DNA of 64,000 nt from a virus, in the IMG/VR virus record IMGVR_UViG_3300032177_000008, positions 1-64,000 of that record. One strand, written 5' to 3'. The notes under the pieces were generated by a model. The model ran no database searches and had not been told where the DNA came from. It worked only from the letters and a program-made list of their open reading frames with translations. Position numbers and translations under genes: made by a program. Positions 3,695-58,614 of the stretch are shown here, piece after piece (the first letter of the stretch is position 1; the number at the start of each line of letters is the position of its first letter).

Positions 3695-3769
3695 TGGAGG
3701 ATGGCGCGGGAGTCGAACCCGCCTGTATTTCCTTTAGAAGGAAAACCTTAGCCGCTCAGGCAGCCATCC
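3695..3769 (-). tRNA. suppressor tRNA, anticodon CUA (reads UAG)
   Basis: Full cloverleaf on the minus strand: acceptor GGATGGC/GCCATCC (7 perfect pairs), D arm CCT-GAGCGGCTA-AGG, anticodon arm TTTCC-TTCTAAA-GGAAA with anticodon CTA, variable loop TACAG, T arm GCGGG-TTCGACT-CCCGC, discriminator T and an encoded CCA end. The loop has U33 and A37 as expected. The anticodon reads the amber codon UAG. The charging amino acid cannot be read from the sequence. It lies 7 bp downstream of a PTH2-like gene on the same strand. Confidence 0.9.
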
Positions 3770-5226: not shown

Positions 5227-5418
5227 TCAGCTGCCGCCGTCTTCACCATCATCGCCATCATCGCCATCATCGCCGTCATCTTCTTTCTTTTTCTTGTCAC
5301 TGCAATCACCGCAAAAAACGTTGATTACGACACAGCTCGGCTTGAGGGATCTAGACTTCTTCCTCTTTTTAGGACCGTCTTTATGATCACCTTCGCCGTC
5401 TTTAAATAATAAACCCAT
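5227..5418 (-). CDS. small Cys- and Asp-Gly-repeat protein
   Basis: 63 aa: a charged N-terminus, CVVINVFCGDC, KKKK, then a run of D-D-G/E-D-G triplets encoded by 9-bp DNA repeats. It looks like a stand-alone version of the N-terminal segment of the 213-aa neighbour, with the same C-V-V-x-N-x-x-CG core. The ATG is preceded by AGGAGATAATG-type spacing. The DG-rich tail might bind Ca2+, which is speculative. Confidence 0.65.
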   Translation of the reverse strand: MGLLFKDGEGDHKDGPKKRKKSRSLKPSCVVINVFCGDCSDKKKKEDDGDDGDDGDDGEDGGS

Positions 5419-15374: not shown

Positions 15375-15884
15375 ATGAAAAAAAGACCATGTGCGTGGCA
15401 GGGAACTGTCATCAATGCCGTTGTAAAAGAGATTCTACCAAAAGTAATTATTTGGGTAAATGATCCTAGCGTACATCCAAATGAGATTGGCTTGGAGTTA
15501 AGGGAAGCTATTGAAGACGGCTGCGATAATGACGGTTATGATATTTCAAGGAATCTAGAAAAGAACTCTGGGTGGGGTTCTGATTCTGAGTTAGTTGAGA
15601 TTCTAGATGATGTGGCCTGGATACAAAACCAGCAGCATAAAGCGCTTGTCGCGAAGTGGGTTGAAGACGAAAATATCAAGCCACTTTATAAGGTGAAAGA
15701 TAAAGTCCTTCATCGTGGGCGGTTAATAGAAAAGGATTATCAGGCTGTAATTTCTGCAGTGGATACTACCCATGCAAAGTACACTCTTTTCATCGAAGAG
15801 TTGGGGCATGTCATGAAGGGCATGGGGGTGCAGGGAGTTATTGTTAATTTTGAGGATGTGAAACCTCTGGAAGGGAAGTCATGA
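15375..15884 (+). CDS. hypothetical protein preceding the Rad50-like ATPase
   Basis: 169 aa. The C-terminal half (YKVKDKVLHRGRLIEKDYQAVISAVDTTHAKYTLFI) reads as a beta-rich SH3/Tudor-like segment; the N-terminal half is helical. It overlaps the Rad50-like gene by ATGA, so the two are co-translated and may act together. Not a Mre11/SbcD-like phosphoesterase. Confidence 0.65.
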   Translation: MKKRPCAWQGTVINAVVKEILPKVIIWVNDPSVHPNEIGLELREAIEDGCDNDGYDISRNLEKNSGWGSDSELVEILDDVAWIQNQQHKALVAKWVEDENIKPLYKVKDKVLHRGRLIEKDYQAVISAVDTTHAKYTLFIEELGHVMKGMGVQGVIVNFEDVKPLEGKS

Positions 15885-17635
15885 TCACACAATTACAACT
15901 CAGTTATTTTCGTGGAGTGAAAGAGCGTACTCTTGCGTTTAATCCAGGTCAGAATCGCATTGAGGGCCCGAACGAGAGTGGGAAGTCTACAGTGGCAGAG
16001 GCTTTTGCATTTGCGCTTTATGGAGTGGATGTAGGAGGTGGGAAGAACCCTGATCACCTGATTCATCATGGCCAAGATACGACCACAGTTGCTCTTTCAA
16101 CAGACAAGGCTGTTTTTGTTCGCAAGAAGAAAAGAGGCCAAACATCGACTGTAGAGCTTCAGCGTCCTGGGTTTCCAGCGATCAAGATGACTCAGACAGA
16201 GCTTACGGCTTTGCTTGGGATGGATTATGATTTAGCTGCGAGTGCGATCTTTGTGGGTTACTTTATGGGATTGACACCAGAGCGGCGGATTGCGGTGATT
16301 AATGAGGCAGTGAAAATCGATCGGAAGGCATTGCTTACAAGTCATCTTTCTAATGTAGAGATTCCATGGAAGTTGATTAAGCTGGTTAATACTAAGGTGG
16401 ATGCAGAGGCAGTGGCCAGGGAAAGACGAGCTTTGCAGAATCTCTATTCAGCTAATCAAGGAGCAATTCGGGAGTTAGATGCGGTTTTATCGAACTCGGA
16501 CACAAATGTTTCTCCAGAAGAGGCAACCAAGTTAGAAGATTTGCTTATGCAACTTCAGGGGAAGGTGGATTTGTATTCTGCTTATGAAGTACAGGCGCGA
16601 GACTTTCAATATGCACACTCTTTGCATCAAACGGCAGTGACTGCTTATGAGTGGAACCTGGCTCACTTTAAGAAGCTGAATGCTGAGCTAGCAGCATTGG
16701 GGGGTGCACCTAATTATCGAGAGAAGGAATGGGAGGATAAGTTAGCTCATCTGACGAGTGAACTAAACTCAGCGAGAATGCAATACAAGCAGAAGCCTCT
16801 CGCACCTGTACTGAAAGAACACTTGTCTGATCAGAGCTGTCCGCGGTGTGGTCAGATGGTGAGCGATAAGTTGAAAGCCTCTATTTTGGCTGAGCGAGAA
16901 GCGAAGCTGATTGAGTTTAATCAACTTGAACGAGAGATTGAGGATCATAACCAGGCCGTACAAAACACGGTAGAGATGCTTGAGAGCCAAGCAAAGCGTA
17001 TTGCACAAGAATCATCTGATTTAAAATCCGAGCATGCAGTTTGGATGGAAAGAACGATAAGTATTAGAAATCAACTTAAAACCCTCAATCCTATTGCTCC
17101 TAATGTAGCACCGGTAGCACCTTTATCTCCTTGGCCTATTGAGGAAGCGGAGAACAATAAAAAATACTTATTTATTACAAGTGGGAGGATTCAAGCAGCA
17201 AAGATTTTTATCGAGAAGAGCGCGTCCAATCGGGCTAAACTCGGGACTTTGGGCCAATCGTCTGCTGATCTAGCGATTCAAATTCAATCGCTTGCCGCGG
17301 TGGAAGGAGTTCTTAAGGCACTCCCAGAAGTCGAGCTCTTAGAGACAATCGAAAAGATTCAGTTACCAGGAGTGAATGTGAAGATTGAGGAAGGCCAGCT
17401 TCAGATCAGTGTTGGAGACATTCCGTATCATTCACTTTCTTCGGGGAGACGGATGAAGACGGACTTCCTGTGGTCAAGATGTATTCAATCGCTTTTGAAG
17501 ACTCCTCCTGGGTTCTACTTTTGTGATAATGCAGATTTGGTGGATTCATTTAAGGGATTTCTTCCTGAGGGTAGCCAAGTCTTCCTCGCAAGTGTTAAAT
17601 CTAATTTGACGGAGTTACAGGTGGTTTCGTTATAA
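15881..17635 (+). CDS. Rad50/SbcC-like ATPase
   Basis: 584 aa. Residues 1-60 hold the ABC-type Walker A, IEGPNESGKSTVAEAFAFALYG. The middle is coiled coil with a zinc-hook-like CPRC (SDQSCPRCGQMV, around residue 317). Near the C-terminus come a signature-like LSSGRRMKTDF and a Walker B-like GFYFCDNADLVD. The overall layout is head, coiled coil, hook, coiled coil, head, shorter than cellular SbcC. Such ATPases hold DNA ends together, normally with an Mre11/SbcD nuclease; no such gene is in the window. Walker B has Asn after the first Asp instead of Glu, which may lower ATPase activity. Confidence 0.85.
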   Translation: MITQLQLSYFRGVKERTLAFNPGQNRIEGPNESGKSTVAEAFAFALYGVDVGGGKNPDHLIHHGQDTTTVALSTDKAVFVRKKKRGQTSTVELQRPGFPAIKMTQTELTALLGMDYDLAASAIFVGYFMGLTPERRIAVINEAVKIDRKALLTSHLSNVEIPWKLIKLVNTKVDAEAVARERRALQNLYSANQGAIRELDAVLSNSDTNVSPEEATKLEDLLMQLQGKVDLYSAYEVQARDFQYAHSLHQTAVTAYEWNLAHFKKLNAELAALGGAPNYREKEWEDKLAHLTSELNSARMQYKQKPLAPVLKEHLSDQSCPRCGQMVSDKLKASILAEREAKLIEFNQLEREIEDHNQAVQNTVEMLESQAKRIAQESSDLKSEHAVWMERTISIRNQLKTLNPIAPNVAPVAPLSPWPIEEAENNKKYLFITSGRIQAAKIFIEKSASNRAKLGTLGQSSADLAIQIQSLAAVEGVLKALPEVELLETIEKIQLPGVNVKIEEGQLQISVGDIPYHSLSSGRRMKTDFLWSRCIQSLLKTPPGFYFCDNADLVDSFKGFLPEGSQVFLASVKSNLTELQVVSL

Positions 17636-18694: not shown

Positions 18695-18701
18695 GTGTTA
18701 G

Positions 18702-18977
18702 ATGAAGGTTACTGATTTAATTAAGGCACTAAAAGAAGCCAATGAATTGTTTATAAAGAAACATAAAGAACCTCTTGAGATATTCGATTTGGTGTTTAAT
18801 GAGGATGATTATGATGGAGACATGAAGATAGAGGCTTGCGGTGAAGTGGCCTATGAAGATAATATTTTTGGACAAGGCACAAAACGTGGTAGAGGACCTA
18901 AGTGTCATATCAGAGTCCATTTTATATGTGATAATGATGAAGTGATTGCTCGAAAAGTAACAATTGAAAAGGATTAG
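18702..18977 (+). CDS. hypothetical acidic protein
   Basis: 91 aa, last gene before the structured RNA region. Acidic (FNEDDYDGDMKIEAC) with an RGRGPKC turn and a beta-like C-terminus. The TAG stop ends three bases before the first RNA domain. Confidence 0.6.
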   Translation: MKVTDLIKALKEANELFIKKHKEPLEIFDLVFNEDDYDGDMKIEACGEVAYEDNIFGQGTKRGRGPKCHIRVHFICDNDEVIARKVTIEKD

Positions 18978-18979
18978 TT

Positions 18980-19093
18980 TATCTCGGCGATGTGGAAGGA
19001 CACATAGCGCAAGCAGGTGATCTGGCCCTGAGTAGGTGAAATACCCGAAAGGAATAAGGTGCCTTAGTCGGTACTCAAGCCCGGCCCGAGATA
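18980..19093 (+). ncRNA. structured RNA domain 1, unknown class
   Basis: The 114-nt segment is closed by TATCTCGG/CCGAGATA (8 bp). Inside it are the hairpin ATGTG-GAAGGA-CACAT, the small hairpin CAG-GTGAT-CTG, and GGC plus TGAGTA pairing with TACTCA plus GCC, which encloses a GGT-GAAAT-ACC hairpin and a CCGA..TCGG arm with AAGG/CCTT. This is far more pairing than flanking coding DNA shows. I do not recognise it as tmRNA, RNase P, 6S or a known riboswitch. Strand is inferred from the neighbouring tRNA-like element. Confidence 0.55.
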
Positions 19094-19096
19094 ATG

Positions 19097-19176
19097 GTAG
19101 TGGGTGCCTAGGATGCAAGGGTTAACAGCTCCCAAAGTCCGACGCCTAGTTAATGCAGCGGTTAGCAGCCCACTAC
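19097..19176 (+). ncRNA. structured RNA domain 2, unknown class
   Basis: 80 nt closed by GTAGTGGG/CCCACTAC (8 bp). Internal pairs: CTAGG with CCTAG, the hairpin GGG-TTAACAGCT-CCC and a TGC-GCA mini-hairpin. It starts three bases after domain 1 and ends 11 bp before the tRNA-like element, so all may be one transcript. No open reading frame covers it. Confidence 0.5.
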
Positions 19177-19187
19177 TTATTTAACAT

Positions 19188-19303
19188 CCCAGGGTAGCTC
19201 AGTTGGTAGAGCATTTGCTGATTAGAGAGGTACCGGTACTCTGCAGAAGGTCATGAACTTCTGTTTCAGCGGGAGGTCAGTGGTTCGAATCCACTCCCTG
19301 GGG
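19188..19303 (+). tRNA. tRNA-like element with enlarged anticodon region
   Basis: Perfect acceptor CCCAGGG/CCCTGGG, TA at 8-9, D arm GCTC-AGTTGGTA-GAGC, and T arm AGTGG-TTCGAAT-CCACT are all canonical. Between A26 and the T arm there are about 62 nt instead of about 22. TTTGC can pair with either GCAGA or GCGGG; both are followed by AGGTCA, which suggests an internal duplication or an intron-like insert. Extra pairs TTTGCTGA/TCAGCGGG and CAGAAG/CTTCTG are possible. No CCA is encoded and the anticodon cannot be assigned. Confidence 0.5.
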
Positions 19304-19329
19304 TCAATACCAATAACAAGGAAAAAATA

Positions 19330-19650
19330 ATGATTAGTTTGATTCTGTTTTTAATGGGCAGTGCCCAGGCAAGTACTATGCTCACCTCTTTTAGTGAGTC
19401 GAATGTGGTATACGATCCCGTTTCTCGCACAGTGATCCATCTACCGTACAAATCTTATTGGAGTTGTACATCACAGAGTCCAGTGATTTATTGTTCGCGC
19501 ACAGAGCCTAGGTTCTGTGCAATGGAAGTAAGAACCTATTATTGCTGTGCAGATTGGTATATCCCTCTAGTGGATATTTTCTCTGAGTGGTCCTGTTACT
19601 CAGATGAGTATATGCCTAGATTTCGTAATCCAGTGATAATCGATCAGTAA
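19330..19650 (+). CDS. secreted cysteine-rich protein
   Basis: 106 aa. The N-terminus MISLILFLMGSAQAS is a signal peptide with a likely AQA-S cleavage. The mature part has eight Cys, including SCTSQSPVIYC, FCAMEV and YYCCADW, so disulfides in the periplasm or outside are expected. The gene follows the tRNA-like element by 26 bp. Function unknown; an envelope-acting or superinfection role is possible. Confidence 0.7.
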   Translation: MISLILFLMGSAQASTMLTSFSESNVVYDPVSRTVIHLPYKSYWSCTSQSPVIYCSRTEPRFCAMEVRTYYCCADWYIPLVDIFSEWSCYSDEYMPRFRNPVIIDQ

Positions 19651-19683
19651 ATTTCATATATAATTATATATGAAAAAATAAGT

Positions 19684-20259
19684 CTAAAACTCAGGGAGTG
19701 CTTCTACGGAGGCACTCCCATTTCCTCTTAAGTACCAAAGCACGTTCATGGGGCTGTCGAATAGCACTCCTGCGTTAGAATGCCTAGACAGAATCTCATT
19801 CTTAGTCCACTTCGATCGGTGGATTTCATAGTCGTTCCCGCCCCAGGCTCCCTGTTCTAAATTAGAATAGGAGAAGAACAGGTGCTTACAGTGCGCTACC
19901 ATCCAATCAAGTGCCCCCAGGGCTTGAGGCTTCTCTAGGTGTTCCAAGACTTCTACAATAAACCCGAGGTCATAATATTGGGTATCCTTCTTTAAAAGGG
20001 CGCAAGCTTCGCCGATCTCCACAGAATTGTAATGATCCCAGAATGGATTACGATATTTTAGAAAACCCTCAATCCCGCGGATCTTGAGCTTCCAGTCTTT
20101 TTGCTCAATACGCTGCCGGTAAAGATCTGTATGAAAGCGGGTGAGCGCCCCCCACTGGCCATAGCCAATCCCCACATCAAGCACAGTCGTGAGTTCAGGC
20201 TCGATCTCATAGAGCTTCTTTAGAACAGGTGGGATGTATTCATAGCAAGAAAATGGCAT
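19684..20259 (-). CDS. SAM-dependent methyltransferase
   Basis: 191 aa, class I Rossmann-type. Motif I is VLDVGIGYGQWG (residues about 27-38), an acidic partner IEGFLKYRNPFW follows, and FIVEVLEHLEKPQAL is the motif IV/post-motif region seen in small-molecule and sugar or lipid methyltransferases. It lacks the DPPY/NPPY of adenine-DNA enzymes, so DNA is an unlikely target. The C-terminus HRSKWTKNEI fits Methyltransf_11/23-type proteins. It is an isolated leftward gene. A substrate linked to the glycosyltransferases at 52 kb is possible. Confidence 0.75.
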   Translation of the reverse strand: MPFSCYEYIPPVLKKLYEIEPELTTVLDVGIGYGQWGALTRFHTDLYRQRIEQKDWKLKIRGIEGFLKYRNPFWDHYNSVEIGEACALLKKDTQYYDLGFIVEVLEHLEKPQALGALDWMVAHCKHLFFSYSNLEQGAWGGNDYEIHRSKWTKNEILSRHSNAGVLFDSPMNVLWYLRGNGSASVEALPEF

Positions 20260-20313
20260 AAAAGTATCTTACCCTACTAGCGTAATTTTTGCCTAGCTGG
20301 TAATCTAAAGACT

Positions 20314-21704: not shown

Positions 21705-21945
21705 GCAAGAACCTATTCTTGCGGTGATTGCAGCCAACCTTAAAAAGCATTTCCCTTCAGACGGGAACCCCATCAAACAAATCATGGATATTCAGGATGC
21801 GAGTACGCATCTCCTGGCCCAGCAGATCGCAGTTTGTACTGCATTGGGTAAAAATCGGGAAGATTATCTTAAAAATAGGTTAGAGCTATTAGTGGTACTT
21901 GTAAGAAAATATGAAGATTTGATTAATAAAAGGAAAGAGCAATGA
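21676..21945 (+). CDS. hypothetical helical protein
   Basis: 89 aa, all-helical by eye. It overlaps the previous gene by 29 bp and the YhaM-like gene by ATGA, which ties it to that gene in translation. Confidence 0.6.
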   Translation: MKNPTELSPEQEPILAVIAANLKKHFPSDGNPIKQIMDIQDASTHLLAQQIAVCTALGKNREDYLKNRLELLVVLVRKYEDLINKRKEQ

Positions 21946-22931
21946 AACAGCTTGTTAAGGATTTGAAAGAAGGAGATGTCGTTGAGAGTGATTTTAGAAT
22001 CATGGATCTTCAAGTTGCCGTGACGAAGCACGGCAAGAACTACCACCGATTTAAGGTGGCTGACAAATCTGGAGAACTCCCCGCTGTCTTTTGGGATGCC
22101 GATGCGAGAGACTACTCTTACAAGGCAGGACAAATATGCCTTGTGGCTGGGGATGTCAGCAACTACCAGGGTAAGAGCCAACTGACGGTGAGATGGGTCG
22201 CAGAGCGTAAGTCTAAGGAAGATAGTGACTTTGATAAATGCACGACTTACGACGTCGAAAAGATGTGGGACCAGATTGTTGGATACATTGGACAGATTAA
22301 GAATAAGTTTGTCCGAGAAGTAGCAGAAGACTTGTTTCTCAATCGCGGTTATCAGAATGCTTTCATGTCTGTCCCCGCGGCGACAGGAATGCACCATGCC
22401 TTCAAAGGAGGTCTGCTCGAGCACACGCTTCAGATGTGTGAGTGTGCGGAGGCCCTGTTGGAGTTGGAGTTCTTTCACCCTCTTAATCGGGATCTTTGCT
22501 TATTCGGCATCCTTTTCCACGATTACGGAAAGTTGTTTGAATATAGCAGTGACCCCGGCTTTCCAAAAACACTCCAAGGGATCTTGGTACCTCATATCCC
22601 CATGGTAGCAGCTCTGATCCATGGGTCTTGTGCGGAGCGGGAGGTGCCTGAAATTGTCCGTGACCATCTCATGCATGTGGTTCTAGCTCACCATGGTAGG
22701 ATGGAGTGGGGATCCCCTGTGACGATGGCTTGCCCAGAAGCGGCTTTCGTTCACTATGTAGATAACCTTCATGGGACAGTTTTTGGGTATCTTCAGAAGA
22801 TTCAAGCGAACCCTGGAAAGGATATTGTCGATCATTGGAATAATGGAAAAATTTACTTGGCTGGAAAATCATTCAGTGCAATCTTAAAAGAAGTGGAGGC
22901 TAATGCGTTACACGAAGGCGGGGGATTCTGA
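21942..22931 (+). CDS. YhaM-like 3'-5' exoribonuclease (OB + HD)
   Basis: 329 aa. Residues about 5-95 form an OB nucleic-acid-binding domain (VKDLKEGDVVESDFRI, FKVADKSGELPAVFWD, LVAGDVSNYQGKSQLTV). Residues about 140-310 form an HD phosphohydrolase: HHAFKGGLLEHTLQMC, then FHDYGK, later AHHGRMEWG and FVHYVDNL. This domain order is that of YhaM/CBF1, manganese-dependent RNases that trim RNA 3' ends (family knowledge). RNA turnover or host mRNA processing is a plausible job. Confidence 0.85.
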   Translation: MKQLVKDLKEGDVVESDFRIMDLQVAVTKHGKNYHRFKVADKSGELPAVFWDADARDYSYKAGQICLVAGDVSNYQGKSQLTVRWVAERKSKEDSDFDKCTTYDVEKMWDQIVGYIGQIKNKFVREVAEDLFLNRGYQNAFMSVPAATGMHHAFKGGLLEHTLQMCECAEALLELEFFHPLNRDLCLFGILFHDYGKLFEYSSDPGFPKTLQGILVPHIPMVAALIHGSCAEREVPEIVRDHLMHVVLAHHGRMEWGSPVTMACPEAAFVHYVDNLHGTVFGYLQKIQANPGKDIVDHWNNGKIYLAGKSFSAILKEVEANALHEGGGF

Positions 22932-23817: not shown

Positions 23818-24402
23818 ATGACTACTGACACTGTGGAGCTAACACTTAAGCTCCCACCAAAAACCGTACGAAAATTGAGAATGCTTGCCATGGGCACTGG
23901 GAAAACGGTTCAGGAGCTTGAGTCGGAGCTATCAACCGTTTTTGATGAGATGCTATCAGAGAACTTGCATGCTCTTCTTCATGATTTGGATGGGGTTGCT
24001 GCTCCTACACCACCCGTTATGGTGGTGAGTAGAGTTATCGCTCCATCTTCACCTCCTTTACAAGAAGAGGAGATTAATGAAGACGAAAACTCTCACATGC
24101 TATCCGGTGATGCTGATGAGGGGGATGTTAAATCAACTGCTGAAAGGATGGAGGAAGGGTCTTTTTCTGGGGAACCTCCCGTACCTGGAATTAATCCATT
24201 CGAGCTCCCGAGTAATATTCCGAATGCGGAAGGAAACATTGAAGCATTTATCGATGCAGCGATGTCGTCTAGTAAACCCTCGCCGCAATCAAATGGGCGT
24301 TACACTTCTTCTAAAAAGTCATTTGACCCAAGACACCCCAGAGTAAAAATCAGTGAACACACAGGAGATGAAGATGGGGAGATGTCCCAACTTTTCATTT
24401 AA
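23818..24402 (+). CDS. ribbon-helix-helix-like protein with disordered tail
   Basis: 194 aa. Residues 5-50 (VELTLKLPPKTVRKLRMLAMGTGKTVQELESELSTVFDEML) fit a CopG/RHH fold: one strand, two helices. The rest is Pro/Ser/Glu-rich and probably disordered. RHH proteins usually bind DNA as dimers. Ribosome binding site AGGAGATTTATT. Confidence 0.6.
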   Translation: MTTDTVELTLKLPPKTVRKLRMLAMGTGKTVQELESELSTVFDEMLSENLHALLHDLDGVAAPTPPVMVVSRVIAPSSPPLQEEEINEDENSHMLSGDADEGDVKSTAERMEEGSFSGEPPVPGINPFELPSNIPNAEGNIEAFIDAAMSSSKPSPQSNGRYTSSKKSFDPRHPRVKISEHTGDEDGEMSQLFI

Positions 24403-41844: not shown

Positions 41845-41880
41845 GCGTCTATCATAGCACGATCAAAAATGAATGAAAAT

Positions 41881-41980
41881 GCGTGACCAGCTTTGAACCA
41901 GTGGTAACGGGATTTGAACCCATGTCCCCGGCTAAACCGGTATCCTAGGCCGCTAGACGATACAACTTGGCCAGTCACGC
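41881..41980 (-). tRNA. tRNA-like element with shortened anticodon arm
   Basis: The minus strand 41900-41967 reads: acceptor AGTTGTA/TACCACT (one mismatch), TC, D arm GTCTAGCGGCCTAGGAT, then CCGG-TTTAG-CCGG where the anticodon arm should be, and T arm ATGGG-TTCAAAT-CCCGT. It is about four bases shorter than normal, so the anticodon cannot be set; with a CCG/CGG stem the loop GTTTAGC would offer UUA. The element is flanked by GCGTGAC/GTCACGC inverted repeats at both ends. Degenerate tRNA or structural RNA are both possible. Confidence 0.45.
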
Positions 41981-42011
41981 ATCCTTTGCCGAAGGGTTCA
42001 AAATCCTTCGG

Positions 42012-43228: not shown

Positions 43229-44155
43229 TCAAAATGACCCGCCACCTGGAATGATTTGAGGTACTGCGAGTGTAATCTTCGCAACAGAACGAAGATTTGC
43301 AATTCCCATGCCCACATATTCCCAACTTTTCCAGAATACTTTATCTGCTTCCTTCTTGATCCAGAACTTCACATCATTCAGGATAAAGAAGTTACCTAAG
43401 AACTGTGGATCCGTATAAGCAAAGATCTGTCCTGGAGGAAGCAGATCAGTCTTATTCGTGACCACAACTTTACGGCGCATGATGGTCTCATACTTATAAC
43501 CATTGACCGTCATTTCCGTCGCAAGCGGAGAGCCCACGTCAGTAGCTGGTTGGATATGCCAATCATCGAAGTCGACGTTGGTCATGAGGATGACCATCGA
43601 CTGGAGTTTATCCACATCGATCATCTTCACCAGTTTGTTGAGGTTCGTACGAGTCACAGTTGTGTCAGCAGAAACGATCTGCTTTCCACTTGCAGTGACA
43701 GCGCCATTGGATACAGCGATCCAAGTGCTGTCTTCCACGAACATGATATCCTTGATCGAATTTTCTTCGATCACTTTCGTGATCGGATATTCGTATGCAA
43801 GGAGCTCGGCTTCATTCTTCACAAAGAGATCGCTCTCAATCTTGAAGAATGGAACTGCATAACGCTTCCCTTGCAGGTAGCGCTCGCGACCCGCTGAGCG
43901 GAAGTTAACCGCGGCAGCAGTCGATGGATGTTCGAAATCCACGACTTTGATCAACGTGTCCTGGCGGGTCGAACGTTGCAAATCCGCACGAGTGACAGAC
44001 TCAGGCGGAAGGATTTTCCTGGCGAACGAGTGTTCACGAAGGAATGAGCGGACATAGGCCTGGCCTGCCTGTGCCGTCTTAGTTTGTCCATCCTGCGTAT
44101 CCATACGCGTGATGAACATATTATTAAATGATACAGCTTCTTCACCCATCGACAT
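43229..44155 (-). CDS. major capsid protein (HK97 fold)
   Basis: 308 aa. An N-terminal ~35 residues with KTA at 26-28, then FARKILPPESVTRADLQRS, a central spine-helix-type segment and a C-terminal NFFILNDVKFWIKKEADKVFWKSWEYVGMGIANLRSVAKI, the P-domain end typical of HK97-type major capsid proteins in large phages. Position after scaffold, protease and decoration genes agrees. The KTA site may mark protease trimming of the N-terminus. Strong ribosome binding site (AAGGAGGAGAC). Confidence 0.8.
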   Translation of the reverse strand: MSMGEEAVSFNNMFITRMDTQDGQTKTAQAGQAYVRSFLREHSFARKILPPESVTRADLQRSTRQDTLIKVVDFEHPSTAAAVNFRSAGRERYLQGKRYAVPFFKIESDLFVKNEAELLAYEYPITKVIEENSIKDIMFVEDSTWIAVSNGAVTASGKQIVSADTTVTRTNLNKLVKMIDVDKLQSMVILMTNVDFDDWHIQPATDVGSPLATEMTVNGYKYETIMRRKVVVTNKTDLLPPGQIFAYTDPQFLGNFFILNDVKFWIKKEADKVFWKSWEYVGMGIANLRSVAKITLAVPQIIPGGGSF

Positions 44156-47078: not shown

Positions 47079-49034
47079 CTATCCTCCTAATTTTTCTGTG
47101 ATACGTGTTGCAGCATCAAGAATTGCAAGATCCCAGAAGAGGGGTTTTTGCTCCTCTGGAATACTGCTTAGAAACTCAATATCTTGGATTGATGCATGTT
47201 TAAAGAGGCGTTTTCCACTCTCAATCGCCTTAGACACATGCTGACTGATTGGCCGACCCATGAGATGTTCAGCGAGTACTCCACCTGAAATCACGTCTGG
47301 ATGGCTAGCCATCAAATTAGTTACAACACCTGGACGCCGTCCTCGCGATTCGCTTGTGTCTTTTTTTATTTTAGCCACTTGTGAAGCCGCATAGATCGCA
47401 GGAATGCCAAAAAAGACTTTTTTGGCGAGTTCCGAATCATATTTTTTAACAGCGCCGGTTTTTATAACCGTGACAGGCCGCGATTGCATTCTAACAATGT
47501 TGCTCTGCCAGTCGTTATTGTAAAGCCCACGGGAACGATCGTCAACACTATATAATCCAGTAGTTGTAGTTCCTGTTAAAGAGTTCAATGCTGCAAGACC
47601 CGTTGCACCTAAAGCAAGGGTGATCAGAGGATGATTCGCCATTATTTTTCCAGCGCCCTGCGCCATAGGTCCAGCATGGTGACCAAAGAGAGCATAAAGA
47701 GCGGCGAGTACTCCTGCCACGTACCCTGGATGAATTGATGGAGGTCTACGGGCGACACTACTAGACATAAGATCTTGAATTGTTTCTGCCTTTTTTATGA
47801 TTTCCGGATCACCGTCATCTAATTTTTTAGCTAAAATAAGAATTCTTTTTATGAGGATAGGGCGAGCAAAGCTCCGTTCGCCAGCAAAAGGTCCGAGCAC
47901 TTCCGCGACAGGATCGCTTACTAAATCAGGTGATAACTCCATTGAGCTCAAAGTTTCTTGGGTCATCTCTGAACCTAATAAGCCTGAAACTTCTTCTTTC
48001 TTAGGCTCAATCCCCATCGCTATCATTGTTGAAAGAAGATGAGCGATAGAAGGAGCGAGCTCTCGCAAACGAGCAATCACTTCTGGTGGAAGCGTAGGGG
48101 AGGTCTCTTGAAGAAGAGCTTTGCTAGGGGGAATCACCCGCTCCAAATGGTCGACAGTCTTGGGCTGAAGAGTAGTCTCGATTCGTTTTGTTATTTCGGC
48201 ACTTTTGCTCACTGCGATTTTTTTTGCAGCTCCAAATTTCTCGCTGGCAATTACTTGTCGTTCTTCTGCTACCTTACTGAGGTAACTTAGATCTGCAATT
48301 TTGCCTGGAGGAAGTTCAGCAAGCTCTGCACTCCCAATGGAACGATAAGGATTCGCCGCCCCAGCTACTTTAGTCCACATATAAGCAGTTTTATCTGCGG
48401 GAATAAGAACTCTACTGATATCAAAAAATCTAGGAATTGTGTTATCGGCACCCACCAATTGGCTGCTCACTGGATCCATCTGATTCATCATATACTTTAA
48501 ATGCTCACAATACTCTGCCCGAGTTTTAGCCTTATTGGCACAGATAGAACAGACATCAAAAGGGACTTTTGCACCCATAGAAAATGTGAGATTGTCTCCG
48601 CGATCAATCGACGTAACTGCATCTGGGTCTAGATTAATATCAATTCCTATAACGAGCTCAACTCGTTTTGATTTGTCATTCCAGACCGCATGAAGAATTT
48701 TTCCTTTTGCTAGTGCTGGGTCAGAGTTCATGTGGTGATTAAAATAGTGGGCATTAGTTAAAAAAGTTTTATATCCGTGGGTATCGCCCTCGTGAGAAAG
48801 AGGTCCTTCTCTGAATCGATCTCCATTAACGTTCTGTCCCCAGAACTCATATGCACCTAACGCGGTCAAAAGGACCTGCACTAAATCCTTTATAGGCTTA
48901 GCTTTTTCGATGTATTCTGCTACTTTTGGATGGTAACTGCCGCCATGCTTACGCAAGTAATTCCGGTCTTCCCGTACAAAGAAGAGTTCGCGCTTGTCGT
49001 CAGTATTTCCGGGGAAGACAATTCGTTTGTCCAA
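47079..49034 (-). CDS. prohead protease with long C-terminal extension
   Basis: 651 aa. Residues about 55-190 look like a prohead serine protease: GAYEFWGQNVNGDRF, then FLTNAHYFNHHMNSDPALAKGKILHAVW (catalytic His region) and DRGDNLTFSMGAKVPFDVCSICANKAKTRAEYCEH (catalytic Ser in FSMG, and an unusual four-Cys/His zinc-like insert). The remaining ~400 residues hold coiled-coil and hydrophobic segments and K-x-A triplets, so it may be fused to a scaffold-like or membrane-anchor part and process itself. Stop TAG next to the next gene's start. Confidence 0.75.
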   Translation of the reverse strand: MDKRIVFPGNTDDKRELFFVREDRNYLRKHGGSYHPKVAEYIEKAKPIKDLVQVLLTALGAYEFWGQNVNGDRFREGPLSHEGDTHGYKTFLTNAHYFNHHMNSDPALAKGKILHAVWNDKSKRVELVIGIDINLDPDAVTSIDRGDNLTFSMGAKVPFDVCSICANKAKTRAEYCEHLKYMMNQMDPVSSQLVGADNTIPRFFDISRVLIPADKTAYMWTKVAGAANPYRSIGSAELAELPPGKIADLSYLSKVAEERQVIASEKFGAAKKIAVSKSAEITKRIETTLQPKTVDHLERVIPPSKALLQETSPTLPPEVIARLRELAPSIAHLLSTMIAMGIEPKKEEVSGLLGSEMTQETLSSMELSPDLVSDPVAEVLGPFAGERSFARPILIKRILILAKKLDDGDPEIIKKAETIQDLMSSSVARRPPSIHPGYVAGVLAALYALFGHHAGPMAQGAGKIMANHPLITLALGATGLAALNSLTGTTTTGLYSVDDRSRGLYNNDWQSNIVRMQSRPVTVIKTGAVKKYDSELAKKVFFGIPAIYAASQVAKIKKDTSESRGRRPGVVTNLMASHPDVISGGVLAEHLMGRPISQHVSKAIESGKRLFKHASIQDIEFLSSIPEEQKPLFWDLAILDAATRITEKLGG

Positions 49035-49037
49035 CGG

Positions 49038-50552
49038 CTAAGTCCCTTTCTTGTGGGACATGGACATCATTGCTTTATTAAACCTCTCTAAACCTTCGTT
49101 ATCTGTTTTAGCGCTTTTTTTTGAATGCCCACCCTCATGATCCGCCGACATGTGCATTGAAAATAAAGACATGGGCTCTTTGAGGCCAGCAATAAATCCG
49201 CCACCTGTTTGTTTATGAATAGATTGAACAATCTGCTGAGTGGAGGCCAACATGTTGGCAGTATTCGGGGCGAGTTGTCCTTGGCTATTAACCACATTTT
49301 CCACAAAAGTTCTCGCGATGATGGGCTTCACAGCAAGTGCCGGAGCAAAACTGCGAAGTGAATCAAAAGCCTCTGAGGCGATTTCTGGGTTTTCTCTAAC
49401 AACATCACTCGTACGTTTAAGACTTGAAAATACATGGTCAGCCTGTTGGCGCATCTGAGCATTTTCACGCTGTTGCATCAGAGAACGAATTGCTTGGACG
49501 CCTACACCTATTGCAAGAGGAATGGTCATTGCCTTTGCATAATCCACCATTTTATTTGCACTAGGCTTCAGAAAGTTACCAACTGTCTGAAGAAGCCCCG
49601 CTTCTTTGCACATCATATGAGTCTCAGCAAGCATCCGCCCTAAGCACTCCTCGCTAACCGATTCTTGTGGTTTCGCCGTCATGGAGGCTGCTCCTTCTTT
49701 TTTTAGACCCATTTCAGATAAAGTTTTTTCAAAGGCTGTTTGGATCCGCGGGTCAACAGATTTGTAATGCGACAGCGTAGCTTCCCAGTCTTTTTTCAGC
49801 GGTTCCATAGAGGCAGCTGTTGCTCTTAAAATTTGATCTTCTGGTTGACCTTGCGCTCGCCATTTTTCTGCTCTTGCTTGTAGCGCAGCTGCGCGTGCTG
49901 TGGGATGGAACGACTCGATTCTGTTCCGGATGTCTTGGTGATCAATATCTATTGGTTTATTAGCCCCAGAACCAAAAAGATCTATCTGAGAAGGAGTCTC
50001 AGAGGATTTCATAGCCCGCTCTGTCAGAACAGGTAGAACTACGCGCATTGCTTGGTCTAAGCCTACCATAGCTTGCGCTTTTGCAGCTGCTCCAGGGAGC
50101 TGTGGTCTAGGTGTACGACTCGTATGATATTCGATTGCAGATAGTCGATGAACATCATCTAGATCAAATCCAGCAGAAAGTCTGGGGGTAATGACTTTAG
50201 AGGCAAGTCCAGGATTAGAGGCAATGGTTGGGGAAATTAGCATTAACTCTGAAAAACGTTGACCAAAGTTTATTGGATTTTTTTTAAACTCGCTTGTTTG
50301 TCCTAGTTGATTATAGCTTTTCATAAGGCCTGATAAGTGAGCCTCATGTTGTTTTTTAGCAGCAAAGTAACCAATTGTTCCACCCACTGCAGTGGAGGCG
50401 AGAATAGGAACTAATGACGGGAGAGTTGCTTTTAAAAAATTCTTTATCCCTTCAGCTGAGGCTGCTTTCTCAAGATAATCCATATCCTCGTTTAAGAAAC
50501 GAATTGTTTCTTCTGTGAAAACAAAGCTATCTTTAAGAAAGTCAGCCCTCAC
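49038..50552 (-). CDS. large internal head protein (hypothetical)
   Basis: 504 aa. A hydrophobic Gly-rich segment near residues 45-68 (LPSLVPILASTAVGGTIGYFAAKK) and another near 345-360 (AMTIPLAIGVGVQAI), joined by helical charged stretches, with KAASAEG and K-E-A/K-x-A sites. Placed upstream of the prohead protease. No enzymatic motif. Possibly an ejection or core protein. Confidence 0.6.
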   Translation of the reverse strand: MRADFLKDSFVFTEETIRFLNEDMDYLEKAASAEGIKNFLKATLPSLVPILASTAVGGTIGYFAAKKQHEAHLSGLMKSYNQLGQTSEFKKNPINFGQRFSELMLISPTIASNPGLASKVITPRLSAGFDLDDVHRLSAIEYHTSRTPRPQLPGAAAKAQAMVGLDQAMRVVLPVLTERAMKSSETPSQIDLFGSGANKPIDIDHQDIRNRIESFHPTARAAALQARAEKWRAQGQPEDQILRATAASMEPLKKDWEATLSHYKSVDPRIQTAFEKTLSEMGLKKEGAASMTAKPQESVSEECLGRMLAETHMMCKEAGLLQTVGNFLKPSANKMVDYAKAMTIPLAIGVGVQAIRSLMQQRENAQMRQQADHVFSSLKRTSDVVRENPEIASEAFDSLRSFAPALAVKPIIARTFVENVVNSQGQLAPNTANMLASTQQIVQSIHKQTGGGFIAGLKEPMSLFSMHMSADHEGGHSKKSAKTDNEGLERFNKAMMSMSHKKGT

Positions 50553-56466: not shown

Positions 56467-56479
56467 TGTGGTTTTTGCT

Positions 56480-56487
56480 GGTATAAG
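56480..56487 (+). promoter_or_regulatory. phage promoter motif GGTATAAG
   Basis: GGTATAAGTTTCATGGGAGG leads to the polymerase ATG at 56507. Confidence 0.65.
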
Positions 56488-56506
56488 TTTCATGGGAGGT
56501 TTACCC

Positions 56507-57769
56507 ATGAACTATAAATATACAAGCAATCCATCCGAAGTAGAGGAAATTGCAAAACAACTGCGACTGGAAAAATCTATTGCAGTGGATACAGAAACTA
56601 CCGGCCTACATCCACACGACAACCAAGTGATTCTTCTTTCTTTGAGTAGTCGAAAGAACACTTATCTGATTGATACCCGAGACAAGCGCTGTCTTTTAGC
56701 CTGCAAAGATTTGCTTGCAGATGAAGCAATTGCGAAGTTAGGCTTTAATCTTCTCTTCGATTACAGCATGATCAAGGGGACTGCTGGGATCGATTTAGAA
56801 GGCTGTTGGGATTTATTCTTAGGAGAGATCGCTCTCACAAATGGTATCCAATTTGATGGTCGCAGTTTGGCAGCAGTGACCAAGAAATACATCAAAAAGG
56901 AAAGAGATAAAACTCTCCAAAAGAGCTTCATTGGGCATGTGGGAGAATTCACAACTGAACAACTTGCTTACGCTGCTGAAGATACCGCTGATCTCTTTCT
57001 AATCGGTGACGAGATGAAAAAGAAGATTATACAAGAAAATCTTCTAGCCACTTGGAGAACGGAAAACAACGCGATTCCTGCTTATGGGGATATGTATGTC
57101 TATGGTCAAAAACTTGACACAAGCGCCTGGACTGATCTCATGCATACCCAGCAAGGAAAGTTGCTTGAGGCTAAAAAGGAGCTGGATACCTTCTTTGAGC
57201 CCGTCTATGGACAAGACCTCTTCGGCGGAACGGCAGTAAACTATGGTTCTCATTCACAAGTTCTTTATGGACTTCAGTGGATGGGGGTTGAAATTGATGG
57301 CGCAGAGATTGAAAGCACAGGTAAGGAGGTGCAAAAGAAGATCATGCATCTTCCAGTCATTATGGCACTCAATAAATACCGTGCCGCGGAGACTGCTATT
57401 AGCCGATATGGTCAAAAGTGGTTAGATGCGATCAATAAGAAAACGGGCAGAATCCATCTTCAGAATAATCAATGGGGAACTGAAACTGGACGAGGATCAG
57501 GAAAGGGAGGGCTCAATGATAGAAATATCCCGCGGGATAAACGCTATCGGCAGTGCTTCACAACTGACTCAGACCGGTTGATTTCCACAGTGGATTATAG
57601 CGGGGCAGAGCTGCGTATTTTAGCAGAGCTCTCCGGAGATGAACTCATGATCAAAGGCTTCAACTCAGGAGTGGACTTCCATTGTTTTGTTGCAGCCATG
57701 CTCTTTAATCGGGAGAAAGTAGAGAAGAAAGATCCGATTAGGCAACCTACGAAGACAATCAACTTCGGT
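56507..57769 (+). CDS. DNA polymerase, family A, exon 1 (3'-5' exonuclease and N-terminal polymerase part)
   Basis: 421 codons; with exon 2 the protein has 626 aa. Exonuclease: SIAVDTETTGLHPHDNQVILLSL (D28, E30), GFNLLFDYSM (exo II) and YAAEDTADLF (exo III). Polymerase motif A is STVDYSGAELR (Asp 363). Exon 1 ends within motif B, RQPTKTINFG. No 5' nuclease domain, so the layout is like T7 gp5 rather than Pol I. ATG at 56507 follows GGGAGG; the in-frame ATG at 56468 lies in the promoter. Replicative polymerase of the phage in all likelihood. Confidence 0.9.
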
Positions 57770-57996
57770 TAGCGAGAAGCCGAGCCGAAATAAAACTCAC
57801 TCAATTCAGGGAAACCCGAATTACGTCTATGTAAAGGGCAATCCTGAGCGAATCCGGTGGGAACACTGGAAGCGTGCAACGACTCACAGCGCAGACAGAA
57901 CGCCTGCGGACTGGGTACACGAAAGTGTAAATACGGTGAGGTAGCAAGATTTGCTACAAGGTATAGTCTGGACCAAAAGTAATTTTGGAAAATCCG
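57770..57996 (+). other. group I intron in the DNA polymerase gene
   Basis: 227 bp splitting motif B. P1 forms between exon TTCGGT (57764-57769) and intron GCCGAA (57784-57789), with the required U-G pair at the splice site; the intron's last base is G57996. Conserved core strings are visible: GGGCAATCCTGAGC (Q region, ~57837), GCAACGACTCACAGC (R region, ~57876) and AAGGTATAGTCTGG (S region, ~57958), plus a P5-like AATTCAGGGAAACCCGAATT. Removing it joins NFG to LAYGMG without frame change. It has no internal endonuclease. Confidence 0.9.
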
Positions 57997-58614
57997 TTAG
58001 CTTATGGAATGGGACCCACACGACTTTATGTATCGTTAATGGGTGAAGGATACAAAACAACAATAGAGGAATGCAAGGATCTTTTCGAGCGTTATAAACG
58101 TACTTTCGGTACTGCAGTCGATTGGCTGGAAAGTCAGAAGGCAACTGCACGAAATAAACTCATGATGGTAAACACTTCCGGCAGAAAACGCTGGTGGATC
58201 AAACCAGAATACGGGAGATCAAAAGCAACTGTTCTTGCAGCAATTAGAAAAAAGAACAAAGGAAAGGATCTAACTGAAGACCAAGAAAGTGAAGCTTATA
58301 AAGAAGCTGAGGATAAATGTAAATCAGCCTGGTCTGGAATTGAGCGAGCTGGAGCTAATTTCTTGGTTCAAAGCGAGAACGTAGAATGGACCAAGCAGGC
58401 TATGTACGAAATCAGAAAGGAGTGCAAGAAAAGAAGCTATGACGCACGCATGTACAAAGAAGTCTATGATGAGATCGTTTTAGATGCCCCTAAAACATGC
58501 GCAGAGGAAGTCCACGAGCTTCAGAAGAAAATCATGATCGAGTGTGGCCAGCGCCGAATGAATAAAGTGCCAGTAGAGGTAGAAGGACATTTAGATCCAT
58601 GCTGGACTAAATAA
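57997..58614 (+). CDS. DNA polymerase, family A, exon 2
   Basis: 206 codons including the stop. It continues motif B as LAYGMGPTRL and carries motif C as VYDEIVLD (residues 577-584), where Tyr replaces the usual His before the catalytic Asp-Glu. An intervening KKNKGKDLTEDQESEAYKEAEDKCKSAW is a phage-specific charged insert. An apparent ATG start at 57985 lies in the intron's 3' end and would not make a functional protein. Confidence 0.88.
   Translation, partial: LAYGMGPTRLYVSLMGEGYKTTIEECKDLFERYKRTFGTAVDWLESQKATARNKLMMVNTSGRKRWWIKPEYGRSKATVLAAIRKKNKGKDLTEDQESEAYKEAEDKCKSAWSGIERAGANFLVQSENVEWTKQAMYEIRKECKKRSYDARMYKEVYDEIVLDAPKTCAEEVHELQKKIMIECGQRRMNKVPVEVEGHLDPCWTK

Follow-up and report, generated by a model that had tools for sequence, protein, structure and literature searches.

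The sequence analyzed here, which we call the window, comprises positions 1-64,000 of the 69,398-base IMG/VR record IMGVR_UViG_3300032177_000008, from an uncultured phage. Three closed RNA domains, all on the + strand and termed units 1, 2 and 3, occupy a 325-base stretch between two + strand ORFs, an upstream one of 91 amino acids (18702-18977) and a downstream one of 106 amino acids (19330-19650), neither of which was assigned to a family by our family search. The stretch had been described as gene-free, and no + strand ORF of at least 60 amino acids was found between 18977 and 19330. The three end stems reported in the initial annotation are likewise present and exact, those of units 1 and 2 being slightly longer than claimed. 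The GC content of the locus is 51%, compared with 43% across the window. The downstream ORF is possibly part of the same transcript, and a terminator-like hairpin (GGGAGTGCTTCTACGGAGGCACTCCC followed by a T-rich tail; 19694-19719, + strand) is a weak candidate for the end of the transcription unit, the terminator search having found one where 2.4 were expected in shuffled sequences. No promoter-like site lies nearer to the locus than 18399. A CTACCCTACTAGCGTAA-like element occurs in non-coding DNA both at 20270-20285 of the window (TACCCTACTAGCGTAA) and at about position 5320 of a relative, L002, and is a possible promoter or operator.

Unit 3 (19188-19303, + strand, 116 nt) is a tRNA-like RNA with an enlarged anticodon arm. 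It matches Rfam family RF00005 with 46.4 bits (gathering score 29), at an E value of 9.8e-7 for the whole window and 1.5e-8 locally. Its 5' portion (19188-19212) consists of the acceptor strand CCCAGGG, T8 and a D arm, GCTC-AGTTGGTA-GAGC, and its 3' portion (19279-19303) of a T arm, AGTGG-TTCGAAT-CCACT, the acceptor strand CCCTGGG and a discriminator G; CCA is not encoded. The acceptor strands form 7 pairs (19188-19194 with 19296-19302). With acceptor, D and T arms, T8, GG in the D loop and a TTCRANY T loop all in place, it is near certain that unit 3 has a tRNA body. The tRNA-like element that had been placed beside the three domains is thus the third domain itself. The domains had all been proposed to belong to no known RNA class, a proposal that an Rfam match was to count against; the RF00005 match takes away unit 3, one third of the claim, whereas units 1 and 2, with no Rfam match and no similar DNA, retain that description.

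In place of a 17-nt anticodon arm, unit 3 carries an arm of 60 nt (19214-19273), in which 8 continuous pairs (TTTGCTGA/TCAGCGGG) surround the hairpins AGAG-9-CTCT and GCAGAAG-8-CTTCTGT. Folding energy z scores are -1.96 for unit 3 and -1.81 for the 60-nt arm alone. A uridine at position 33 is nearly universal in decoding tRNAs. In unit 3, position 33 is G in every single-intron register that would restore a 7-nt loop on a 5-bp anticodon stem. Because removal of any single stretch leaves G33, decoding is unlikely whether or not the RNA is spliced, and with no U33 in any register and an arm of 60 nt, unit 3 very probably does not decode. We also considered a divergent tmRNA and rejected it: the two acceptor strands pair with each other, which makes unit 3 a closed RNA, and an ARAGORN scan of the window calls no tmRNA.

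Units 1 and 2 are candidate structured non-coding RNAs defined by their closing stems. Unit 1 (18979-19094, + strand, 116 nt) is closed by 9 perfect end pairs (TTATCTCGG/CCGAGATAA), and unit 2 (19096-19177, + strand, 82 nt) by 10 (GGTAGTGGGT/GCCCACTACT), counting G-U ends around a perfect core of 8 pairs (GTAGTGGG/CCCACTAC, 19097-19176). Within unit 1, ATGTG-GAAGGA-CACAT forms an inner hairpin, and apart from it and the closing stem no helix is well supported in the ensemble; suboptimal structures of both interiors disagree, including on the multi-branch pairing. The folding energies fall within the range of shuffled sequences (z of -0.47 for the whole region, -1.0 for unit 1 and -1.35 for unit 2). 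Two domains, each closed by at least 8 bp and together tiling at least 85% of the spacer 18978-19187, occurred in none of 20,000 order-1 Markov shuffles. The limits of this spacer are set independently, by the stop of the upstream ORF and the start of the tRNA body, but we set the tiling criterion with the stems already in view and 0.87 tandem closed pairs are expected by chance somewhere in the 64 kb, so that the evidence is good rather than conclusive.

We searched region 18700-19700 with Rfam and found no family for units 1 and 2 even at E<=10; blastn against 50,697 phage and 72,556 plasmid records likewise gave no match to them, and exact core patterns from all three units are absent from IMG/VR and GTDB. 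No counterpart of units 1 and 2 was found in 28 related records. The syntenic gaps of relatives were searched as well, and the sole tandem-stem candidate (G028, 84359-84870) looks coding by eye. Resemblances to hammerhead and twister ribozymes, judged by eye, were rejected for both units, as required core bases or their order are missing and the Rfam models have no match. On balance, units 1 and 2 are probably real RNA structures.

Across the whole window, the Rfam scan lists two tRNA matches, one group I intron and nothing else. The intron (RF00028, 53.2 bits; 57760-57989) splits a DNA polymerase gene (56468-58614). A second tRNA-like RNA of this phage lies at 41899-41967 on the - strand, within 41845-42011; its anticodon arm has shrunk to CCGG-TTTAG-CCGG, with no anticodon, and it is enclosed by a further 9-bp stem (ATGCGTGAC/GTCACGCAT). 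tRNAs with a CUA anticodon, of the amber suppressor type, are present in the window (3695-3769, - strand) and in the contigs L002 (1638-1712), L015 (1220-1292) and L160 (G028). TAG ends 11 of the 50 window ORFs of at least 150 amino acids, which argues that it is a normal stop and that the CUA tRNA does not serve a general reassignment of the code. Two adjacent late ORFs on the - strand, 49038-50552 (504 amino acids) and 47079-49034 (651 amino acids), share a frame with TAG codons between them, and amber readthrough by the CUA tRNA could possibly yield a protein of 1163 amino acids. At positions 1-218, tandem copies of AAAGCTAGCTTT with 33-nt spacing lie upstream of an orphan ORF of 793 amino acids (219-2600), which has no Pfam or PHROG family match.

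Early-region proteins used as queries identified few relatives of the phage. The major head protein (43229-44155, - strand) identified 39 relative contigs, with 57-87% identity, and since the longest relatives measure 175-182 kb, the 69,398-base record is probably a fragment. In two relatives, G001 and G028, tRNA clusters are flanked on one side by a homologue of the SbcC-like gene (15881-17635) and on the other by one of the HD-nuclease gene (21942-22931); this is the interval that holds units 1-3 in the window, and in G028 it includes a tmRNA as well. About 0.6 kb upstream of its homologue of window gene 23818-24402, another relative, G030, encodes a tRNA-like RNA of 104 nt whose anticodon arm is enlarged; here a U33 register exists, so splicing is possible. 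In G033, a tRNA-like RNA of about 140 nt, also with an enlarged anticodon arm, lies directly behind a tmRNA and scores 25.8 bits, below the Rfam cut-off. The arms of these two RNAs show no sequence likeness to that of unit 3, which suggests a position and a design that recur within the lineage with a variable arm. G033 also encodes a homologue of the ORF upstream of unit 1 (46% identical), directly behind which lies another ORF and not units 1 and 2.

Several further RNA features were observed among the relatives and other viral contigs. tmRNA genes occur within phage tRNA clusters in G028, G031, G033, L014 and L015. Beside their tRNA clusters, G001 and G028 have a candidate non-coding RNA in common (GAGC..CTGAGCTCAGGGGG..TCGTCTAAC), and G031 (L157, 3253-3347) provides another candidate, a domain of 95 nt that immediately follows tRNA-Phe and is closed by GAACGTGGC/GCCACGTTC. 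In L002 (3081-3160), a cloverleaf-like 5' leader with an 8-bp stem (CGATGGCT/AGCCATCG) and three hairpins stands just before an ATG; it has no Rfam match and is riboswitch-like.

A gapped D-arm/T-arm pattern retrieved 27 viral contigs, about 20 of which contain tRNA bodies with an enlarged anticodon arm. Nine of these phage contigs (L006, L011, L013, L014, L020, L025, L027, L029 and L031) carry what we term Family A, tRNA-like RNAs that have ordinary tRNAs as neighbors and, in the position of the anticodon arm, a core GGTRAAGGACC. Covariation in the replacement arm is strong across the nine contigs, with 6 of the 7 pairs of its main helix changing on both sides; Rfam detects only a tRNA. Like unit 3, Family A combines complete acceptor, D and T arms with a structured replacement of the anticodon arm, and its members are located in tRNA arrays. 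Their arm differs from that of unit 3 in sequence and shape and shows no homology to it, as cross-matches score the tRNA body only.

The same D-arm/T-arm pattern identified eight Bacteroidota loci in GTDB (L044, L049, L056, L058, L060, L062, L063 and L066), at which tRNA-like RNAs lie within arrays of the hairpin motif GGTCAAN{4,9}TTACT[TC]C (26 copies, with 0 expected from shuffles). A neighboring gene of ~746 (~750) codons is mostly found within 450 nt of the array, and in all four loci tested (L044, L056, L058, L066) its product matches NF041916 (MXAN_6230/SCO0854 RING), below the curated cut-off. These loci look like an undescribed Y-RNA-like system. Among viruses, L015 (3760-4224 and 1351-3471) combines an NF041916-like gene with five GTTACTTCT repeats, one of them inside a tRNA-like arm, and in L012 (2477-3330 and 3379-4983) two tRNA-like RNAs and an array of CAGCAAC hairpins accompany a DUF2828/DUF7788 gene. 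In total, six viral records bearing tRNA-like RNAs encode a Ro-like protein, within 1.5 kb in three of the six; one match is weak (E 3.5e-4).

The initial annotation compared the locus to GOLLD, a large phage RNA found near tRNAs. The general idea of phage non-coding RNAs near tRNAs holds up, but GOLLD differs in size, motifs and structure, and the region matched no Rfam family, GOLLD included, other than tRNA. RNAD and RNAC of phage T4 are a closer parallel. The T4 tRNA cluster ends with rnaD (119 nt) and rnaC (139 nt, with a T arm); both RNAs are expressed late, with function unknown (PMC9697503), and are stable phage RNAs without an assigned role (PMC9697503, PMC3014915). RNAC (species 1 RNA) is similar to unit 3 in having a tRNA-cluster neighborhood, a T arm (GTTCGAATCC) and an enlarged, non-standard remainder. 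However, sequence likeness between the two is limited to the T arm, RNAC has mismatched acceptor pairing and different arms, and it ends a large tRNA cluster whereas unit 3 stands alone. The blastn matches listed for the region are confined to the tRNA parts of unit 3 and include no T-even record. RNAD (species 2 RNA) is similar to unit 1 in size and in adjoining a tRNA-like RNA, and CCCTGAGTA occurs in both at nearly the same position, but the conserved GAAACCGGGTCGCTACCGGTAAGTCGTCGG and ACGGCGCAC of RNAD are absent from unit 1. A covariance model built from 11 T-even RNADs and run with filters off gave no match at 18979-19094; we rejected homology and judge the likeness to be due to chance. 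Unit 3 resembles an already known kind of RNA, the unexplained stable RNAs of phages such as those of the T4 tRNA cluster.

Bacterial Y RNAs (YrlA and others) are also tRNA mimics, in which one domain is tRNA-like and another binds protein. In YrlA the RNA ends exit through the anticodon side, whereas those of unit 3 exit through the acceptor. Bacterial Y RNAs work with Ro60 proteins, and profiles PF05731, PF11443 and NF041916 found no Ro-like gene in the 69,398-base record, itself probably a fragment. According to work cited in PMC12282133, Y RNAs occur in bacteria and phages, and cases in phages have been reported or proposed (PMC12282133, PMC7824862).

Several explanations of the locus compete. 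Richer tRNA clusters with tmRNA occupy the same neighborhood in relatives, and the locus could be the decay product of such a cluster, with unit 3 a pseudogene bearing an insertion and units 1 and 2 non-functional; the ordinary folding energies and the failure to find homologues of units 1 and 2 would fit. However, a decaying locus should show mismatches, whereas unit 3 retains every one of its 7 acceptor pairs together with an intact D stem and T arm, its 60-nt arm folds cleanly into an extended stem bearing two hairpins, and units 1 and 2 are closed by perfect stems; we regard decay as unlikely. ARAGORN calls unit 3 a tRNA only in intron mode, as tRNA-Leu(CAG) with a 22-nt intron, and other tRNA bodies in IMG/VR carry inserts that could be introns, which would make unit 3 an ordinary tRNA gene whose short intron is removed before use. 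This solution disregards the 8-bp arm helix and leaves the problem of G33 in every register. The extra ~43 nt also fall well below the size of a group I or II intron (usually >200 nt), and no intron match was obtained in 18700-19700 at E<=10 whereas the real group I intron at 57760 was detected, so that splicing appears very improbable.

A cis-acting role would make units 1 and 2 the 3' UTR of the upstream ORF or the 5' leader of the downstream one, with the tRNA body an RNase P cleavage site parting two messages. The tight packing of units and ORFs on one strand favors such an arrangement, and punctuation of transcripts by tRNAs is established in other systems, but Rfam shows no ligand-class motif and the G033 homologue of the upstream ORF does without units 1 and 2; we consider it rather improbable. 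It is very doubtful that unit 3, perhaps together with its two companions, is a true Y RNA that mimics a tRNA and links a Ro60/TROVE-type protein of the host or the phage to a ribonuclease; the OB-HD nuclease of the phage (21942-22931) would be a candidate partner. Elsewhere Ro-like genes do adjoin tRNA bodies with replaced anticodon arms, and Y RNAs often occur as sets of tRNA-like and non-tRNA-like members. A possible Rsr protein near abundant non-coding RNAs has been described in a Listeria phage (PMC12282133). Yet the record has no detectable Ro-like gene, and neither GGTCAA..TTACTTC nor CAGCAAC, the motifs seen in the Ro-linked sets, is present in the arm of unit 3. For these reasons the wider class suggests a mechanism that is not established for this locus.

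The explanation we favor, to which we give about even chances, is that the locus encodes a tRNA mimic that is stable, does not decode and binds a protein through its replaced arm, together with two companion RNAs. The RNA cluster itself is real and probably functional; its transcription, processing, stability, protein binding and part in infection we infer from the sequence. It would be a small group of co-oriented non-coding RNAs, sited in the neighborhood that houses tRNAs and tmRNA in related phages. The body of unit 3 would be recognized and trimmed by the tRNA-processing machinery of the host (RNase P, 3' processing and CCA addition) to give a stable RNA, whose 60-nt arm would be the functional payload, most likely a protein-binding platform as in Y RNAs, and units 1 and 2 would be structured RNAs freed from the same transcript. 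A more specific version, which we think improbable, is that units 1-3 form an RNA set on a tRNA scaffold, a new class with two orphan members in which the body serves only for processing and stability. The arm and units 1 and 2 might then recruit an RNA-handling protein, either a Ro-like ring or the OB-HD exoribonuclease of the phage, and such recruitment would redirect host RNA turnover or counter a tRNA-cutting defense.

This locus and the viral loci retrieved alongside it suggest that phages repeatedly use a design in which a tRNA mimic that does not decode carries an exchangeable anticodon arm, and that this is no oddity of T4. The Ro-like genes beside some tRNA-like RNAs offer a concrete hypothesis for what such RNAs bind, and the occurrence of such genes next to hairpin arrays and tRNA-like RNAs, a side finding, may outweigh the locus itself in importance.
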